A stretch of 59,376 nucleotides of DNA. Origin: Bizionia sp. (GTDB lineage: Bacteria; Bacteroidota; Bacteroidia; Flavobacteriales; Flavobacteriaceae). Of this stretch, positions 694 through 11,552 are shown one piece after another. Position 1 is the stretch's first letter; every line of letters starts with the position of its first letter. The translations under genes and the position numbers were made by a program. The notes below the pieces were generated by a model. That model did no database searches and was not told the origin of the DNA. It saw only the letters and a list, made by a program, of their open reading frames with translations. The DNA lies in the NCBI GenBank assembly GCA_020631395.1, contig JAHDHI010000024.1:1-59376 (forward strand). Direction: 5' to 3'.

Positions 694-735
694 AAAAAAA
701 GCGCAAACTATAATTGGTTTGCGCTTTAAGTTTTA
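694..735. terminator. Bidirectional terminator between S8 protease and GG peptide
   Basis: A perfect 11-bp stem (698-708 paired with 717-727, core GCGCAAAC/GTTTGCGC, 8-base loop) is flanked by a run of seven A on the left and T-rich sequence on the right, so it can terminate on both strands. It sits between two convergent genes, which supports the reality of the small minus-strand gene at 748-861. Confidence 0.8.
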
Positions 736-747
736 ACGAATATGAAA

Positions 748-861
748 TTATTCTACTCCCCCATCATCATCATCAGGTTCCATAGACCCTAGCTTGGATC
801 CGCCATAGATCTTAATCATCATTTCATTCTTAATTTCAAAAGCTTTGAGTTTTTCCAACAT
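748..861 (-). CDS. Double-glycine leader micropeptide (37 aa), candidate RiPP/bacteriocin-like precursor
   Basis: A short reading frame encodes 37 residues. The first 21 look like a double-glycine leader: charged and helix-prone (MLEKLKAFEIKNEMMIK), ending in IYGG at residues 18-21. The remaining 16 residues (SKLGSMEPDDDDGGVE) are strongly acidic, with four consecutive Asp, and contain no Cys. Support for a real gene: a -7 promoter box (TAATTTTG, 907-914) about 45 bases upstream, an A-rich start context typical of the phylum, and a bidirectional terminator just past the stop. Such leaders are normally cut by the C39 peptidase domain of ABC exporters; none is in the window. It lies between an S8 protease and a CHAT protease. 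Precursor status is inferred from the leader shape alone, and the modification or export route is unknown. Confidence 0.6.
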   Translation of the reverse strand: MLEKLKAFEIKNEMMIKIYGGSKLGSMEPDDDDGGVE

Positions 862-906
862 GTTATTTATTATTTAAGTTTATCGACTCATCTAACTCAT
901 AAAAAA

Positions 907-914
907 CAAAATTA
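907..914 (-). promoter_or_regulatory. -7 promoter box for the GG peptide
   Basis: On the minus strand this reads TAATTTTG, a full match to the Bacteroidota consensus TAnnTTTG. A TTG lies 24 bases further upstream, somewhat farther than usual for the -33 element. The predicted transcript starts about 40 bases before the ATG. Confidence 0.5.
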
Positions 915-977
915 TTATGTGGTTTATATTTATCTTGTCAAGGTTTCAGTTTATTTGTAGAACATTATTTAACTTGA

Positions 978-3725
978 ATGTACTCTATGGTCTTGTCAAA
1001 GTGGTTTTTATTTTTAGCAATATTACTTAGTGCTCTTTCTCTATATTCCCAAAAACAGCTAAATGACAAGGTTTTAACAATAAAAAAGAAGAAGAATTTA
1101 ACTTTCGATGAAAAAATAAAAAAAACAAAAGCACTTTTAAAAGACGAAGATTTTATAATCAATTTGGAAAATCAAAGTGATGCATACCACCATCTAGGTT
1201 TTTACAACGAGAAAACAAAAAACTACAAACAAGCAATACAAGAATTACAAAAAGCCATAGACATCAGGGAATCTCTTCCTGGATTGGACTATAAATTGGA
1301 TAATAGTCTATTGAATATGTCTCAACAATACCTTTATCTAAAGGATGCAAAACAACAATTGTACTATTTGGACAAGGTAATAAAAGGCAATAGAAAAAAC
1401 AGATTTACTTATAAGGCCTACAACAAATTGGCTTTGATTTTAAAAAACAATGGGGATTACTTCAAGGCATTGCAATACTTGAAAATAATCATAGATTCTT
1501 ATGATAATTACAATGACATAAAAATTCTATCCATCGCCTATAAAAATGCCATACTCATCTATAGTCTAGTGGAGAACCTAACAGAAAGCGACATCGAAAC
1601 GATATTTCTGTACAGTGAAGAATTCGAAAAGAAAAATACCGACAATATAAAGAACATTCAGGTTTACAACAATCTTGCAAGGATATACAAAAAGATAGGT
1701 AACTATGAGAAAGCTACAGAATATTTAAAAAAATCACTGGACTTGGCTTTACAATACAAAGAGCATGAAAGAATAGCCAAAGCCTATGCCAACATAGCTG
1801 CACTGCATTCAGAATTCAACAATCATAAACTTGCAAAAGAACATTATGACAAAGCATTGGAAATCACTAAGAATCATGTCACCATCGCCGACATTTACTT
1901 CAACCAAGGGTTTTATCTACAAACCAAAAGAACCTTGGACAAAAATACCTTATATGACAAGGCGCTTTGCATTGTATTGGGAATTTCCAACATGTCGACT
2001 TCCATCAAATTCTTACCAACCATAAACAACATCAAAGAATCCCCATACAAGATAGATATCTTGAGCTACTTGATTGAGAAGGCCAACAACTTTGTACTTG
2101 CTTACGAAGAAGAGCAAAATCCAGACTATTTAAAATATTCCCAAAGCACCCTATATCTAATAGATCAATTGGTGTCTTTGATTCGTTTTGAAAGCACCAA
2201 CAACAATTCCAAACTCTTCTGGATAAACAAAGGTGTAGACTCCTATATGTTGGGCGTAAAAGTCTCCTATTTGCTTGACGACAAGGAGTCTGCCTTTTAT
2301 TTCATGGAAAAGAACAAATCCTTGCTATTGTTGGAAAATTTAAATGCCACGCAAGAGAAGGCCAAATTGAATATTCTAGACTCCATATTGCAAAGGGAAT
2401 TCAATCTGCGTTACTCCATCCTATCTTTGGAGGACAAGCGTCGTAAATCTCCTAAAGACAAAGCATTGACCGACTTGTATTTGGAAAAGGAAAACACCTA
2501 TATTCATTTTTTAGATACTCTGAGAAAGCAACATCCCGATTATTTCAACTCCAAAAAGGAGCCTGAGATATTGACATTGAAAGATGCAAGAAGCAAGTAT
2601 GTCTCCAGCTCCTCCAACTATATGGAGTACATCCTCAACGACGATGCAGGCTATGGTCTTTTTTGTGATGAGAATAGCTCCATTCTATTCGAAATACAAG
2701 ATGCTCCCAAATTATTGAAAGAATTGGAATCATTGAAGGAATTGATGAATCGTCCAATCGTCTATGAAAAGGACAATAAAGCCTATAACGACATCTCATT
2801 GTCCATATTCAAAAAAATATTCCCTTTCAAGGATGCCTTGCAAAGCATTTCCAACAAGAAATTGACGGTGGTACCGGATTACAAATTGAAAAACCTTCCT
2901 TTTGAAGCCTTGACAACATCGACAAACACTGAGAATACTACATATAATTACCTTATTGGCAACAATGTGGAAATATCCTACTACCAGTCTGCATCCGTAT
3001 TCAAACAAATAGAGAAAAAAGAACGCAAAGCGGAAAAACAACTCATAGGGTTTGCTCCAATTGCATTTAGTGATGCATCTCTGCCATCCTTGGAACGAAG
3101 TGAAACGGAGATGAAAGGTATTTCGTCTTTACTCCCTACTACTCTATTGACCAGAGACCAAGCAACAAAAGAGGCATTTGTATCGAGTTTGAACGATTAT
3201 GACATCATACATATAAATACTCACGCTGGCATAGATGATGACAATGTCCCTTGGATTGCCTTCTCCAATGAAAAAATGCAGCTCAATGAATTGTACGGCA
3301 TAAGCAATCAAGCAAACTTGGTCGTTTTGGATGCTTGCAAAAGTGCTTCTGGCAAACTATTGAAAGGAGAAGGACTCATGAGCTTGTCTCGTGGTTTCTT
3401 CTATAGCGGCTCCAAAAGTGTCATTGCCTCTCTATGGAACGTCAATGAAAAGTCCAACAATGAAATATTGGTTTCTTTCTATAAAGGCATAAAGGAAGGA
3501 CAGACAAAATCCAAAGCCTTGCATAATGCCAAGTTAAACTATTTGAACAATCATCAAAACAGTGAACTGTCTCCCTATTTTTGGTCTTCTCTCATACTTA
3601 CTGGTGATGCAACGGCCATAGAGATAAACGATACATCCTATGCTTATTCAATCATGATGGGGATCGTATTGCTCCTACTAGTATTGTTTTTCTCAAAAAT
3701 CAAAAAATTTCTATTGGGCAAATAG
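978..3725 (+). CDS. TPR-CHAT protein (caspase-like protease), signal peptide and C-terminal anchor
   Basis: A 915-residue protein. Residues 1-25 form a signal peptide (hydrophobic, ending LYSQ). Residues about 60-330 carry tetratricopeptide repeats, e.g. the segments around HHLGFYNEKTKNYKQAI and NNLARIYKKIGNYEKA, followed by a helical linker. The last third is a CHAT domain (Caspase HetF Associated with TPRs), a clan-CD cysteine protease fold: catalytic His749 in HINTHAG, catalytic Cys787 in VLDACKS, and the closing motif SPYFWSSLILTGD. One transmembrane helix (about 890-907) and a short basic tail follow. This predicts TPR and CHAT outside the cytoplasm, tethered to the inner membrane. The start could also be the ATG nine bases on (MVLSKW). 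Target and trigger are unknown; S8 protease and GG-peptide genes are next door. Confidence 0.85.
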   Translation: MYSMVLSKWFLFLAILLSALSLYSQKQLNDKVLTIKKKKNLTFDEKIKKTKALLKDEDFIINLENQSDAYHHLGFYNEKTKNYKQAIQELQKAIDIRESLPGLDYKLDNSLLNMSQQYLYLKDAKQQLYYLDKVIKGNRKNRFTYKAYNKLALILKNNGDYFKALQYLKIIIDSYDNYNDIKILSIAYKNAILIYSLVENLTESDIETIFLYSEEFEKKNTDNIKNIQVYNNLARIYKKIGNYEKATEYLKKSLDLALQYKEHERIAKAYANIAALHSEFNNHKLAKEHYDKALEITKNHVTIADIYFNQGFYLQTKRTLDKNTLYDKALCIVLGISNMSTSIKFLPTINNIKESPYKIDILSYLIEKANNFVLAYEEEQNPDYLKYSQSTLYLIDQLVSLIRFESTNNNSKLFWINKGVDSYMLGVKVSYLLDDKESAFYFMEKNKSLLLLENLNATQEKAKLNILDSILQREFNLRYSILSLEDKRRKSPKDKALTDLYLEKENTYIHFLDTLRKQHPDYFNSKKEPEILTLKDARSKYVSSSSNYMEYILNDDAGYGLFCDENSSILFEIQDAPKLLKELESLKELMNRPIVYEKDNKAYNDISLSIFKKIFPFKDALQSISNKKLTVVPDYKLKNLPFEALTTSTNTENTTYNYLIGNNVEISYYQSASVFKQIEKKERKAEKQLIGFAPIAFSDASLPSLERSETEMKGISSLLPTTLLTRDQATKEAFVSSLNDYDIIHINTHAGIDDDNVPWIAFSNEKMQLNELYGISNQANLVVLDACKSASGKLLKGEGLMSLSRGFFYSGSKSVIASLWNVNEKSNNEILVSFYKGIKEGQTKSKALHNAKLNYLNNHQNSELSPYFWSSLILTGDATAIEINDTSYAYSIMMGIVLLLLVLFFSKIKKFLLGK

Positions 3726-4042: not shown

Positions 4043-6394
4043 ATGAAAAAAAGTATTTTAATTTTAATGGGACTATTAGTTTCCATTATTTCATATTCTC
4101 AATCTTGGGACTATGTCAACTACGAAGATGGCAGCTACATTAGTGCAATGAATGCTACCATAGATGATTCAGACAATGTTTATACCTACGGAGAAAATGT
4201 AGGTTTCACACGTGCATTGAGACGTTTCGACAATGCAGGAAACTTGCAATGGACAAAAGACATCTCTTCACTTTTAAGCTATATGGGCTATACTGGAGAA
4301 GGTGGTATGGAATACAAGGATTCCAACATTTATGTTGTGGGTTCAAATGGTTCAAACAAAGGAGCCATAGTAAGTTCTGGCATCTCTGGTGCTGCAACTC
4401 CCAATACTTGGGATCAATTGACGGGAAGCAATTCTAGAATGTTGGACATCAAAATCAAAGGCGATTTCCTATATGTAGTTGGTCACTTTGGCTCTCACAC
4501 CACTCCTACATCTTCAATTACGTTCTTTGATGGTACGACACTTACAGGAAACAGAGGAAGTTCTTTCATCGCCAAATATACCATCACATCGACAAAGACA
4601 TTGGTATGGGCTAAAAAGATAGATGCATCCAACATCACCAGAGGAAACAACATCGATGTGGATGATGATGGCAACGTATACATTACGGGAGACTTTAGAG
4701 GTACTGCCATTTTCTATGATGGTGTTACTCCTCACATATTTACATCTTCGACACCAAGTCCAACAGCCACTCCCGATACTTTCTTGGCCAAATTTGATGC
4801 CAATGGAAACTTTGACAACACATTTGGATTAAAAACCGATGGACTTACAAACAGTTACAATTGGAGAAGTTATGACGTTGAAGTAAGTGATGTGAACAAT
4901 GCCGTATACTGGGCTGAAGACACAAAAGTCGTTGCTTATGACAAGAATGGATCTGGAAGTTTTCTATGGTCGAGAAATTTGGCTCCAAAACCATATAGCA
5001 TAGAGACCAATGGTTGTGGAGATGTATATGTTACTGGTGCCACTTACGACCCTGTAAACAAATCCAATGCAGGTGATGTATCCAAAGCTCCTTGTGGCTA
5101 TGATTTCTTTGCCACCTCATTGAACAATGCTAGTGGGCTTAGTGTTTGGAGTTCCAATTCCGACTCCTGTTCTTCATTTGGATCCGAGGCATTGATGGAT
5201 TCCAACAACAAGGAAATCTTGGTAGGATCCTATTTTACCAGTGGCGTATCCACACCGTTGAATATAGACGGTTCATACGTATCCGGAGGGCCAAGAGGCT
5301 ATTTCATCGCTAGATATGACGATGCAACAGTGAACAATTGTTGCAAGGAAGACATTGCAATAGACATCCCTAAAAAAATCAAAGTTTGTGATTCCAATTT
5401 TGAGGAAATCTGTGCTCCTGCTGCTCCTGCTGGAAATTCATATACATACGAATGGTGGGGACCACATCCATCTTTGCCTATGAGCACCTTGTTGTCAAAC
5501 AGCATGTGTTTTACTCCTTCCAAATATGGGTCATACAAACTTGTAATAGTGGATCAAAATGGTTGTACCACTTACTTCACATTTACAATAATCGAAGATG
5601 TAGGTCCATCTATTTTCATTGAGGATGTTTTCTACTGTGGCAAGGTTCCTGCCATAATTGGATTCAACTACGATCCCATAGGAGATGTACCTTATAAATA
5701 TTCCTACGAATGGACGTATAATGGAGATCCATTGGGTTATTCAGGAGATCACCAAATACCCAATCAAGGAGATGGAGAATACTGTGTAACCATCAATTGG
5801 CCATCAAGTACGGGTTGGTGTTCTTCCACGACTTGCTTTACCGTAATGAAGTGTTGCAAGCCTGATCCATCATTCAACACATACTTCAGTGCTTCACCTA
5901 CCATCAACAATCTGGTGATTAGCAACATTCCTTCTTATGCAGACGACTATGAAGAAGAAACATACAATGTGTACAGACAGTGCCCTGGAGAGACGAGTTG
6001 GACTTTGATACACACGGAAACAAGATCTGGAGCAGCTATGTACACTCCAATATCACTGACAGTCAATCATACTTGCAAGTACAGAATACAACACATAATC
6101 AATCAAATGTGCATGCAAAAAAGTTTTGTATCCACTGTATATGTCAACGAGACAAGAAAAATCACTGTGGCACCAAATCCGGTAAAAGATCACTTCAAAA
6201 TCAATGTGGAAAACTTTGAAACAGTCAAAGAAGCTACAGTAATGGTTTTAAACGCCAATGGCATCAAAGTTTATGAAGCTACTATTACTTCTAATGACTT
6301 TAAAGTGAATAGCATTGGCTGGAAAACTGGATTGTATTTCTGCAAATTACAGATAGACGGTAAAGAATATATGAAAAAAATCATAAAAGAATAA
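4043..6394 (+). CDS. T9SS-sorted secreted protein with propeller-type repeats
   Basis: A 783-residue exported protein. A signal peptide covers residues 1-19 (cleaved before QSWDY). The first half has repeated blades of the type DxxxNVYxxG, e.g. NIDVDDDGNVYITGDF and GCGDVYVTGATYD, typical of SBBP-like beta-propellers. Then comes an Ig/PKD-like stretch rich in Cys and aromatic residues (about 440-640). A T9SS type A sorting domain fills the last ~75 residues, starting VAPNPVKDHF and closing with Lys-rich beta strands (YMKKIIKE). The sorting domain sends the protein across the outer membrane for surface attachment or release. No catalytic motif was recognised, so an adhesin or structural role is possible. 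Its leader shares the 85-base element with the gene at 7780. Confidence 0.8.
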   Translation: MKKSILILMGLLVSIISYSQSWDYVNYEDGSYISAMNATIDDSDNVYTYGENVGFTRALRRFDNAGNLQWTKDISSLLSYMGYTGEGGMEYKDSNIYVVGSNGSNKGAIVSSGISGAATPNTWDQLTGSNSRMLDIKIKGDFLYVVGHFGSHTTPTSSITFFDGTTLTGNRGSSFIAKYTITSTKTLVWAKKIDASNITRGNNIDVDDDGNVYITGDFRGTAIFYDGVTPHIFTSSTPSPTATPDTFLAKFDANGNFDNTFGLKTDGLTNSYNWRSYDVEVSDVNNAVYWAEDTKVVAYDKNGSGSFLWSRNLAPKPYSIETNGCGDVYVTGATYDPVNKSNAGDVSKAPCGYDFFATSLNNASGLSVWSSNSDSCSSFGSEALMDSNNKEILVGSYFTSGVSTPLNIDGSYVSGGPRGYFIARYDDATVNNCCKEDIAIDIPKKIKVCDSNFEEICAPAAPAGNSYTYEWWGPHPSLPMSTLLSNSMCFTPSKYGSYKLVIVDQNGCTTYFTFTIIEDVGPSIFIEDVFYCGKVPAIIGFNYDPIGDVPYKYSYEWTYNGDPLGYSGDHQIPNQGDGEYCVTINWPSSTGWCSSTTCFTVMKCCKPDPSFNTYFSASPTINNLVISNIPSYADDYEEETYNVYRQCPGETSWTLIHTETRSGAAMYTPISLTVNHTCKYRIQHIINQMCMQKSFVSTVYVNETRKITVAPNPVKDHFKINVENFETVKEATVMVLNANGIKVYEATITSNDFKVNSIGWKTGLYFCKLQIDGKEYMKKIIKE

Positions 6395-8675: not shown

Positions 8676-11552
8676 ATGATTTTTAAAAAATTATGTCAAT
8701 GGAGTGTCTTGTTTTTCCTTTGCATAGGTTCTGTGAATGCGCAATGTGACAACAATGTGAATACAGATCCCGACAATGCCACGAATGATGCACTTCCAGT
8801 AGACTTGACTCATCCCAGCGGGGATGACAGATATTTAAATGGAACCAATTGGTTTCCATTGACGCCAGGTGGCGGATTTGAAGATTATGACCTATCCAAC
8901 ATGATGTGGTCTGGAGTACCACTTGCAGAAATGGATAACATCTGGTCAAGCCCGCTCTCCCATTATCAATACATAAACGATTCACCAAGGCCCATTCCAA
9001 AAAATGGTTGGGAACTATTACTGGTAAATCTAGGGAGATATCCCAACGATGTAGACATAGCGGACAGCAATGAAACCTTTCAAGCGCTTCCATATATTGT
9101 AATTTACAATAGGTATTCTGGAATCGTGAGAGTTTTTGCCAACTTTGGTTTGGATCAATTGGTCGGAGATGGCCCTGATGCCGTAGAAGTAGTGATGAGC
9201 TTTGTCTTGAACGAAGACAATACTGGATCCACAGGTTTGGCACGTTTATATAGTGGCAAGGACATGCCTTTGGACAAACCGACGAAAGTGACGACAATGA
9301 AAGCTCTTGCAAAGGCTACCAATGCACAAAGGCAGTGGTTTTCTACAGATTTTCAAATTGCATACGACCCATGTACATGTTATTTCCCTTCCCAAATCAG
9401 AATTCATTTCAATCAAATCAAGGAAGAAAGTCTAGAACTACATGGAAGAAGTCTATCTGTAACAGATAATCTCATAAACCCAGATTTGCAAATAAACCCC
9501 ATGGATTTCTTGTCTGGTTTTGATTATACGGGAAATGACGAAAACAAGGGTGGCATCCTAATTTACAAAGGATTGCAAGGTCTTGTTGACGATTACATAG
9601 AACGCCTTGAAAAGTATAAATTGGATTTGGAAGCTGCCAACAGACACAACAAGGTCGTAGAACATAACTTGAATGCATTGAAGGTTCTTAAATATGCCTT
9701 GACAGCAATTTTTACCTATGGAATCAATGCACAAGCCATTGATACCTCAGGTATGATAGGACAGGAATGGTGGACAAAGATCAAGGATCAATATGGTTCT
9801 TTCATAAAGACATCAAATAAAATCAACATAGAAAACCTTCTGAAGATAGCAAAGAAGATACTTGGTTCCGATGCAAAGACGTACATAGAGCAAAACTTCG
9901 AGAAAATGCCATTGCCAAGTGCTCCAGATCCAAAAAAGGTTCCTAGTGTCACCTTTACCGAAATGCATTTTCAAGGACTGATTTCCGATTCTGAAATTAA
10001 AGGGGGGCCTACGTTTTACACTCCGGGAACCTATGGTACGGAGGCTACCAAGGTATTGGACTTGTCCACTCCTGATCCAGATGACAAGATAGATCCCATC
10101 TTGGAAACCATGTATGAGTATCCCGTTTACAATGAAGTCTTGGGTAGCTTTGCGTTGTTGAACAGTCCGAAGATCACCTTGACAAAACGTTATGTCCCGG
10201 ATTCGGCATCGGAAAGTGACAATTTGATAGAGACTAATTATGGAACGTTGCAACAGGTCTTTTATAAGTCTTGGTCCAATGAATATCAAATCAAAATAGA
10301 CAATGACCTCATGTTTGCCTTCAACAAGGCTTTGGACATTGAAGATTATGAGATAAAGGCAGCCTTCAGGTTCAAAGCGCAAACGAAAGCCATAAACACC
10401 AATGGGCAAAACTTCAACACGTTCATAGATCCAAATTATACGACGAATGTATCTTCCACAAGTTACAATGTGGACACTTATGACATCATGAGGAAGTATT
10501 CCAATACAGAATACACCAACAGTGTAGAAGATGGTTGGGGACCAGATCCAGATTGGGAACCATCTGAATACGAAACACCTTATGGAGAAGCACCAGCGTT
10601 ATTCCAAACACCATTTGTTCCTCTGGATGCATTTTATAATTTCATTACTGGTGTCGGGCAAAAACAAGAGTTTTTTCAATTTTCTGGAGCTTTTGATTAC
10701 TTGCACGAAACAACCCAAGGTGTTGGTTTGGAATTCTATGACATAGAATTGGTTCTAAGCGTAGATATAAAGTTCAATACGGAAAACGATCATGGTTTAA
10801 AAAATACAAGTACTCAAATTTTGAGCTATGACATTTTACCTGAGCAAATTGAATACCATACGGAAAACTATACCTATACAGAACTTGATCCAACACTGGC
10901 ATCCTCCTTGGATATGGGAACGTTCAATGAAAATATCCATTTGGGAGACATTCTTTTTGACGGAAGCCCTGTGGAGAATTGTACTTTGGTTGGCAACGTC
11001 TACACTTGCAGAGCTTGGAATGACATCTATATTGAAGGGAATTTGAGTACTACTGGCTCATATGTTGCCAACATCATTGCTGGCAACAACATATTCACAT
11101 CGCCAGAATCCACAACGGATCCAGAAACCAATCTTTGGATAGAGACTCCTTATGATACCTCCCACCCAATGATTCATGCAAGTCCAACGGATGTTTCCAC
11201 TTTTTGCAATACGAAATACAAAGCCAATTTTAGGGATCCTGATATTACAGGAAAGACAGCATTCAATAAGAATGTAGGTGAACAAGAGTCCGTAAAAGGC
11301 AATTCTTTGTTGGCTCGCCTCTACCCAAATCCTGCAGATGGTCATGTCAATGTATCCTTGACAGGAGTGGACAATGAAACTGTAAACATTGCCATATATG
11401 GTATCTTGGGCAAGCGTTACAAACTTCCCATACAAAAAGAAAGAATTTCTTCATACCGTATCAATACTGAAAGCTTGAACACTGGGATGTACTTTATAAA
11501 AATAACAAGCAGCAATGGTTTTACAAAAACATTAAAGTTGATTATCAATTGA
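8676..11552 (+). CDS. Large T9SS-sorted secreted protein, function unknown
   Basis: A 958-residue exported protein. The signal peptide is residues 1-23 (ending NAQ). A first ~270-residue region contains a CTCYFP motif. A predicted helical/coiled segment follows near 305-345 (YIERLEKYKLDLEAANRHNK). Next is a long beta-rich region with many Asp, Asn, Tyr and Thr. The T9SS type A sorting domain covers the last ~80 residues, beginning ARLYPNPADGHVNV and containing GMYFIKI near the end. Several Cys pairs (TLVGNVYTC; STFCNTKY) could form disulphides outside the cell. No enzyme motif was recognised. It follows the tail-fibre-like gene by 11 bases and ends at a bidirectional terminator. Confidence 0.75.
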   Translation: MIFKKLCQWSVLFFLCIGSVNAQCDNNVNTDPDNATNDALPVDLTHPSGDDRYLNGTNWFPLTPGGGFEDYDLSNMMWSGVPLAEMDNIWSSPLSHYQYINDSPRPIPKNGWELLLVNLGRYPNDVDIADSNETFQALPYIVIYNRYSGIVRVFANFGLDQLVGDGPDAVEVVMSFVLNEDNTGSTGLARLYSGKDMPLDKPTKVTTMKALAKATNAQRQWFSTDFQIAYDPCTCYFPSQIRIHFNQIKEESLELHGRSLSVTDNLINPDLQINPMDFLSGFDYTGNDENKGGILIYKGLQGLVDDYIERLEKYKLDLEAANRHNKVVEHNLNALKVLKYALTAIFTYGINAQAIDTSGMIGQEWWTKIKDQYGSFIKTSNKINIENLLKIAKKILGSDAKTYIEQNFEKMPLPSAPDPKKVPSVTFTEMHFQGLISDSEIKGGPTFYTPGTYGTEATKVLDLSTPDPDDKIDPILETMYEYPVYNEVLGSFALLNSPKITLTKRYVPDSASESDNLIETNYGTLQQVFYKSWSNEYQIKIDNDLMFAFNKALDIEDYEIKAAFRFKAQTKAINTNGQNFNTFIDPNYTTNVSSTSYNVDTYDIMRKYSNTEYTNSVEDGWGPDPDWEPSEYETPYGEAPALFQTPFVPLDAFYNFITGVGQKQEFFQFSGAFDYLHETTQGVGLEFYDIELVLSVDIKFNTENDHGLKNTSTQILSYDILPEQIEYHTENYTYTELDPTLASSLDMGTFNENIHLGDILFDGSPVENCTLVGNVYTCRAWNDIYIEGNLSTTGSYVANIIAGNNIFTSPESTTDPETNLWIETPYDTSHPMIHASPTDVSTFCNTKYKANFRDPDITGKTAFNKNVGEQESVKGNSLLARLYPNPADGHVNVSLTGVDNETVNIAIYGILGKRYKLPIQKERISSYRINTESLNTGMYFIKITSSNGFTKTLKLIIN

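Follow-up and report, generated by a model that had tools for sequence, protein, structure and literature searches.

Between the genes for an S8 subtilase and a TPR-CHAT protease lies a micropeptide gene, very probably real, whose 37 codons join a double-glycine leader to an acidic core similar to part of the prodomain of the S8 enzyme encoded alongside (Table 1). The window analyzed here is the whole of contig C76 of genome G000 (positions 1 to 59376), and the reading that we favor, with confidence evenly balanced, is that the micropeptide is exported as a decoy of the S8 prodomain and acts on an envelope cascade of S8, CHAT, and sigma factor. Our confidence in the decoy reading rests mainly on a comparison of 71 double-glycine cores, the coding figures weighing less.

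Table 1. Features of the micropeptide locus, in window coordinates.
Feature	Coordinates	Strand	Basis
Double-glycine-leader micropeptide gene, 37 codons plus stop	748..861	-	ORF; G002 ortholog in same place; third-position bias
Leader, 21 residues ending in Gly-Gly; hydrophobic I-4, M-7, I-12	799..861	-	
Acidic core SKLGSMEPDDDDGGVE, 16 residues, resembling S8 prodomain helix-loop	751..798	-	13/16 identical to G002 S8 segment
Intrinsic terminator of micropeptide gene, 11-bp stem plus T run	698..727	-	Terminator scan; stretch identical in G002
Possible -7 box TAATTTTG	907..914	-	No mismatch here; not conserved in G002
34-nt block shared unchanged by G000 and G002, flanked by the divergent micropeptide and CHAT genes	909..942	.	
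S8 subtilase, C-terminal part; N terminus with prodomain lost at contig edge	9..605	+	PF00082, E 9.9e-22
TPR-CHAT protease; signal-like N-terminal and C-terminal hydrophobic segments	978..3725	+	PF12770, E 5.7e-47

The micropeptide translates as MLEKLKAFEIKNEMMIKIYGG (leader) followed by SKLGSMEPDDDDGGVE (core). It is one of 285 ATG-initiated ORFs of 25 to 60 amino acids in the window, and none of the others combines a Gly-Gly ending at residue 17 to 26 with hydrophobic residues at positions -4, -7, and -12. This uniqueness, together with an ortholog kept in the sister genome G002, bears out the claim of a preliminary description, made from the letters alone, that this is a real Gly-Gly-leader gene. 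The peptide matched 0 NCBIfam families at E values up to 10 and had no match in Pfam, and the four Rfam matches all fell under the gathering score. The same description had assigned the gene a bidirectional terminator and a promoter of its own. The terminator stands, but only as a minus-strand element in the scan, so that the bidirectional form is not supported. The -7 box is present without a mismatch, but its end is changed in G002, where it reads TAATTTCA; given this lack of conservation and the position of the 34-nt block between divergent genes, the promoter of the micropeptide is not established, and the block could serve the CHAT gene instead.

Two further genomes of the genus were compared. 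In G002, the ortholog has the same place and orientation and retains the start, leader, Gly-Gly, and terminator; the other genome, G001, gave no match to the window micropeptide sequence. Over the 34 codons preceding a 1-nt length difference, the two peptides share 24 of 34 residues, and the 19 nucleotide differences are distributed 4/3/12 across codon positions (binomial P of 0.007 for the third), with a dN of 0.15 and a dS of 0.62 for these gap-free codons. Neutral simulations kept the frame open with at least the observed identity in 909 of 20000 runs. The length difference (GGGGGA versus GGGGA) shifts the frame at its end, such that GVE in the window becomes a single E in G002; a frameshift in a relative, which the preliminary description had named as a sign against the gene, does therefore exist but is confined to the last three residues, the rest of the frame being kept. 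The leader appears to be under more constraint (dN 0.08, dS 0.60) than the core (dN 0.27, dS 0.92), in an alignment that paired the last Glu across the shift and gave slightly more favorable figures. The noncoding stretch at 606 to 735, which includes the terminator, has hardly diverged between G000 and G002 (129 identical columns out of 132 in the alignment), with dS values of 0.24 to 0.32 in the adjoining coding DNA; the minus strand of 606 to 745 folds with a z score of -2.4, and the stretch is possibly a small RNA or a conserved 3' element.

When G002 was searched with the window peptide, the matches included not only the ortholog but also the middle of the S8 gene, in which the segment ESKLGSMDPDDDEGGSEG shares 13 of 16 residues with the window core. 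The contig begins within S8 and so lacks the prodomain of the window's own protease, for which the G002 segment was used as a stand-in; the remaining S8 fragment of the window is 95% identical to residues 233 to 432 of the G002 protein. In an alignment of S8 proteins, the segment precedes the catalytic domain and follows a Glu invariant in ten proteins, within a strongly variable region. A structural model of an S8 relative (locus L082; mean pLDDT of 54 overall, with blocks 51 to 120 at 65 to 90) has a beta-alpha-beta-beta-alpha-beta order over residues 56 to 124, in which the segment corresponds to the second helix (104 to 114) and its loop. The top Foldseek hits to this model are subtilases, several with a prodomain (pro-subtilisins), at TM scores of at most 0.50 by query. 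Pfam recognizes the S8 domain only, and no prodomain family, in the G002 protein, and among the matches listed, those of S8 to PDB sequences cover the catalytic part only; the naming of the segment as prodomain rests on its position and on the model. The core covers the helix-loop segment only, and alignment and model did not reveal a complete prodomain fold in it. Residues identical between core and S8 are often encoded by different codons (6/13 for the window core and G002 S8, 5/8 within G002, 4/10 in G001, and 3/6 in G401), so that recent copying of DNA does not account for the resemblance, which is kept at the protein level. The suggestion in the preliminary description that the peptide might be linked to a protease thus gains support in a more specific form, through the likeness of its core to the prodomain of the S8 protease next to it; as a whole, that interpretation is partly supported.

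Comparable peptides occur at S8 loci elsewhere. In G001, the sigma factor of which is 80% identical to that of G002 and the S8 of which is far diverged, a double-glycine peptide is encoded 76 nt after the anti-sigma gene on the same strand, and its core, IVAIGISNEDNSDSE, matches the genome's own S8 segment, IVAISMSSDDDSDSE, at 10 of 15 residues. In G401, the peptide gene lies tail to tail with the anti-sigma gene; its core is LVPKKAVLESEIEGE and its own S8 segment is DIEPKKGVIEEDIDDDDD, and the core is closer to the S8 of the congener G400 (EPKKGVIEDEIDGE) than to its own. Placement of the peptide gene therefore varies, from the gap between S8 and CHAT to positions behind the anti-sigma gene on its strand or tail to tail with it. 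Since the genes of G000 and G002 are orthologs, these cases amount to three independent loci, not four.

To gauge specificity, each core was scored against 20 S8 segments (BLOSUM62 local alignment). The window core scores 72 with the G002 segment and 61 with that of G278, the other 18 giving at most 30; the G001 core scores 50 with its own segment and at most 23 with the other 19; the G002 core scores 42 with its own segment, 43 with that of G278, and at most 26 with the rest; and the G401 core scores 37 with its own segment and up to 50 with those of congeners. High scores are specific to a core's own S8 or its close relatives. Shuffled cores reached the own score in 0 (window), 3 (G002), 0 (G001), and 6 (G401) of 20000 trials. 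The strictest control set 71 double-glycine cores from 12 genomes (the window being represented by its first 3000 bases only and by the G002 S8) against the S8 segment of their own genome, and the four S8-locus cores rank 1 to 4 (72, 50, 42, and 37), the remaining 67 having a mean of 13.4 and a maximum of 24.

An alternative ranking of 58 double-glycine peptides by z score against shuffles placed G002 (5.0) and G401 (3.9) first, with a leader pattern that left out the G001 peptide; the 71-core comparison used another pattern, and all such lists of small ORFs depend on the leader pattern and omit any ORF that shares more than 40 nt with a longer one. In six-frame scans around 34 S8 genes, the best match of the own S8 segment falls within the double-glycine-peptide core in G001, G002, and G401. 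The corresponding scores of 50, 42, and 37 are unexceptional by themselves (the 1122 off-diagonal values have a mean of 30.3, a 95th percentile of 38, a 99th percentile of 42, and a maximum of 56), the own segment ranking 1, 3, and 7 among 34, and another own match, in a long frame, reaches 40.

Two further cores were considered and set aside as support. The core IMPRKKAIE of G354 resembles S8 helices but lies at a distance of approximately 1 Mb, and shuffled versions do as well in 637 of 20000 trials. The G402 core DKKLSIQDGSGGPE scores 38 with a foreign S8 segment and only 20 with its own; the surrounding 26 kb showed no S8 gene. Within the genus of G354 (loci L282, L284, L221, L182, and L238), double-glycine cores reading TATDDLAKWRK or similar recur beside a protein of ~423 amino acids whose start contains SYASYILIPM and whose internal TLMDFSAKW weakly resembles the neighboring core, which is possibly a second case of resemblance between a core and its neighbor. 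This genus also carries a large repertoire of double-glycine-leader micropeptides (L218 to L279), with the recurring cores ATEYIILL, TTEVTVNKAKMADKAMNAMTQYISS, and IIITDD.

The window leader is like those of double-glycine peptides handled by C39 (PCAT/AMS) exporters, being short, ending in Gly-Gly, and hydrophobic at -4, -7, and -12 (I, M, and I). In the LahT150 complex, a groove on the C39 domain accommodates Val-4, Leu-7, and Leu-12 (PMC6363468). The micropeptide differs from this class in that its core resembles the prodomain of a neighboring protease and lacks Cys, and in that its contig lacks an exporter. The preliminary description had pointed out that no C39 exporter lies nearby; indeed, none was matched on the window contig, but this is no obstacle, since the genome encodes two C39-type ABC exporters above the Pfam cutoff on other contigs (C103 and C46), along with a third below it. 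From the leader form and these exporters, the micropeptide would belong to the C39/PCAT-type leader peptides, with export and cleavage after Gly-Gly predicted. Similar leaders are found in the grasp-with-spasm/TIGR04149 RiPP precursors of Bacteroidota (a G321 peptide is a weak TIGR04149 match, E 0.047). The window peptide did not match TIGR04149, and no GRASP_w_spasm enzyme (TIGR04192) was matched in G000 or G002 at an E value of <=0.001; one such enzyme exceeds the cutoff in G001, and one falls below it in G401. A grasp-with-spasm precursor was accordingly rejected for G000 and G002 only, in which the maturase was not matched.

The cassette in which the peptide gene sits consists of an ECF sigma factor, an anti-sigma factor, the S8 lipoprotein, and TPR-CHAT. 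A TPR-CHAT gene lies downstream of S8 on the same strand in 34 of 34 S8 genes (33 loci), once after a 141-amino-acid ORF, and an ECF sigma gene is present in 32 of the 33 loci, with a sigma-like fragment at the locus edge of L077; in the window, the sigma and anti-sigma genes would fall beyond the contig edge. Peptides of this leader type lie near only 3 of the 33 loci, none being found in the other 30, and the double-glycine peptide is an optional part of the cassette; none was found near the S8 of G278, which is 74% identical. The CHAT protein has hydrophobic segments at residues 1 to 24 and 885 to 915, and its H749 and C787 are invariant in 6 aligned sequences, while the S8 proteins share an invariant Cys located at a lipoprotein-like signal. 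Judging from these features, S8 and CHAT are probably both exposed to the periplasm and so within reach of an exported peptide.

In each of 23 anti-sigma proteins inspected, a hydrophobic segment near residues 105 to 150 is followed by a C-terminal part, and in most of them a motif close to YxxYxxWxELPSFVEKG, a candidate protease recognition site, comes just after the segment. The idea that the anti-sigma protein carries the same motif as the S8 segment was discarded: it stands out only in G002 (score of 40), own scores in the other 22 being 13 to 29 (off-diagonal mean of 19, 95th percentile of 26). The divergent sigma-S8 gaps of L059 (8695 to 9144) and L060 (5322 to 5600) have GCGGGTAATGTTTT in common, and GGGTAATG in the sigma-S8 gap is also found in G001 and G401; these words form a candidate target motif of the ECF sigma factor. 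A sigma-target motif common to the peptide genes was rejected, words like GGGTAATG being absent from the 160 nt upstream of the peptides.

Relatives of S8 include, among the matches listed, a Flavobacterium MAG, Aquimarina, and Maribacter. A profile search yielded, among the 80 loci listed, at least 5 useful S8/CHAT/sigma loci (L082 to L086), in which no double-glycine peptide was found. Searches for S8 orthologs in 4 genomes of the G278 genus and 9 of the G338 genus returned only the known one in each, a search of 397 genomes with the G001 S8 turned up no further genome, and the viral contigs contained no relative of the window S8 fragment. Downstream of CHAT, the window encodes two proteins with type IX secretion tails (4043 to 6394 and 8676 to 11552). 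A similar gene trio accompanies the cassette in G002 (L059, 2023 to 6513) and G001 (L073, 4533 to 8986); two proteins of the G002 trio have peptidoglycan-binding domains and one has a CHAP domain.

As we picture the decoy, a C39-type ABC exporter encoded elsewhere in the genome would recognize the leader and cut after Gly-Gly, releasing the 16-residue acidic peptide into the periplasm or the outside, where the core would imitate helix two, and the loop after it, in the neighboring S8 lipoprotein's prodomain. In a classical subtilisin prodomain, the second helix and its loop face away from the active site, which is entered by the tail. As the imitated segment is the one facing away, the decoy is probably not a plug of the S8 active site; it would more likely vie with the S8 prodomain for binding to a third protein by which the prodomain is recognized, the likeliest being the TPR-CHAT protease encoded next door, and would thereby set how readily the cascade of S8, CHAT, anti-sigma, and ECF sigma fires. 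Several points count against the decoy: the loci are few, the window prodomain is represented by a stand-in, G278 lacks the peptide, the G401 core is nearer to congeners, and the G402 core scores 38 with a foreign S8.

It is unlikely that the core is instead a substrate or signal, with CHAT or S8 cutting the exported core as it would the S8 prodomain loop and the fragment serving, via the anti-sigma protein, as a local signal of kinship or density. The same core-S8 data (the 20-segment scores and the 71-core ranking) are compatible with this alternative, as are the G001 peptide gene, which may be co-transcribed with the sigma and anti-sigma genes 76 nt ahead of it, and the hydrophobic segment plus C-terminal part of the 23 anti-sigma proteins; its receptor, however, is putative, and the anti-sigma resemblance to the S8 segment is prominent in G002 only. 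Still less probable is an action on S8 itself, in which the core would take the place of the prodomain helix against the remainder of that domain and either hinder folding or free the enzyme from inhibition. To our knowledge, propeptide-like inhibitors consist of the whole prodomain fold and inhibit the active site, whereas the core, a helix plus loop, has neither the strands nor the C-terminal tail. What lends this possibility some weight is the stand-alone propeptide-like protein with which the malaria parasite is reported to inhibit its SUB1 subtilase (PMC6993865).

That the gene encodes an ordinary double-glycine-leader RiPP or bacteriocin precursor, whose likeness to S8 is without function, we rate marginally lower again. 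Its leader does lie within a broad set of double-glycine leaders that precede many unrelated cores in related genomes, and the GRASP_w_spasm enzymes of G001 and, below the cutoff, G401 make modification possible there; yet four S8-locus cores at ranks 1 to 4 of 71 are at odds with a chance likeness, and neither a GRASP_w_spasm match in G000 and G002 nor an NCBIfam or Pfam model for the window peptide was found. Highly improbable, finally, is that there is no gene at all and that the ORF is a decayed fragment copied from S8 or arose by chance: it is short, the neutral simulation makes an open frame only moderately unlikely, and the 1-nt shift alters the last residues, but a double-glycine leader is joined to the core, the terminator is its own, leader and frame are kept in G002, and the arrangement is similar at three loci.

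Double-glycine-leader peptides are a known kind, as are subtilase regulators that stand alone and resemble a propeptide. The micropeptide is like the latter (the malaria SUB1 inhibitor and the fungal POIA1) in being a separate gene product that resembles a subtilase prodomain, and it differs in comprising one helix-loop segment of 14 to 16 residues behind a double-glycine leader, with protease inhibition putative. The cassette has a parallel in Craspase, whose TPR-CHAT protease cuts an inhibitor (Csx30) of an ECF sigma factor, so that in both systems TPR-CHAT is tied genetically to an ECF sigma factor and its inhibitor (PMC10028731). Here, by comparison, no CRISPR part was seen, and the protease looks to be located in the envelope, with an S8 lipoprotein and a membrane anti-sigma protein; the parallel makes a role of TPR-CHAT toward the sigma inhibitor plausible by analogy and proves nothing. 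In the titles and abstract openings searched, largely of papers outside subscription, we encountered no description of this peptide or cassette and no double-glycine micropeptide whose core tracks the prodomain of a neighboring protease.

A broader proposal, which we offer tentatively and with the balance leaning against it, is that bacteria export micropeptides imitating a prodomain segment of an envelope protease whose gene shares their locus, the core co-evolving with the prodomain such that each pair forms a private lock and key; such a peptide would set the S8/CHAT threshold that feeds the ECF sigma factor and would constitute a trans-acting decoy signal, perhaps from cell to cell. Many double-glycine micropeptides lack a known target, and a core that resembles a neighboring protein points to a candidate partner, making target finding by mimicry testable for orphan micropeptides. 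The finding also offers a handle on an envelope cassette of ECF sigma, anti-sigma, S8 lipoprotein, and TPR-CHAT, for which the parallel to Craspase would merit attention.
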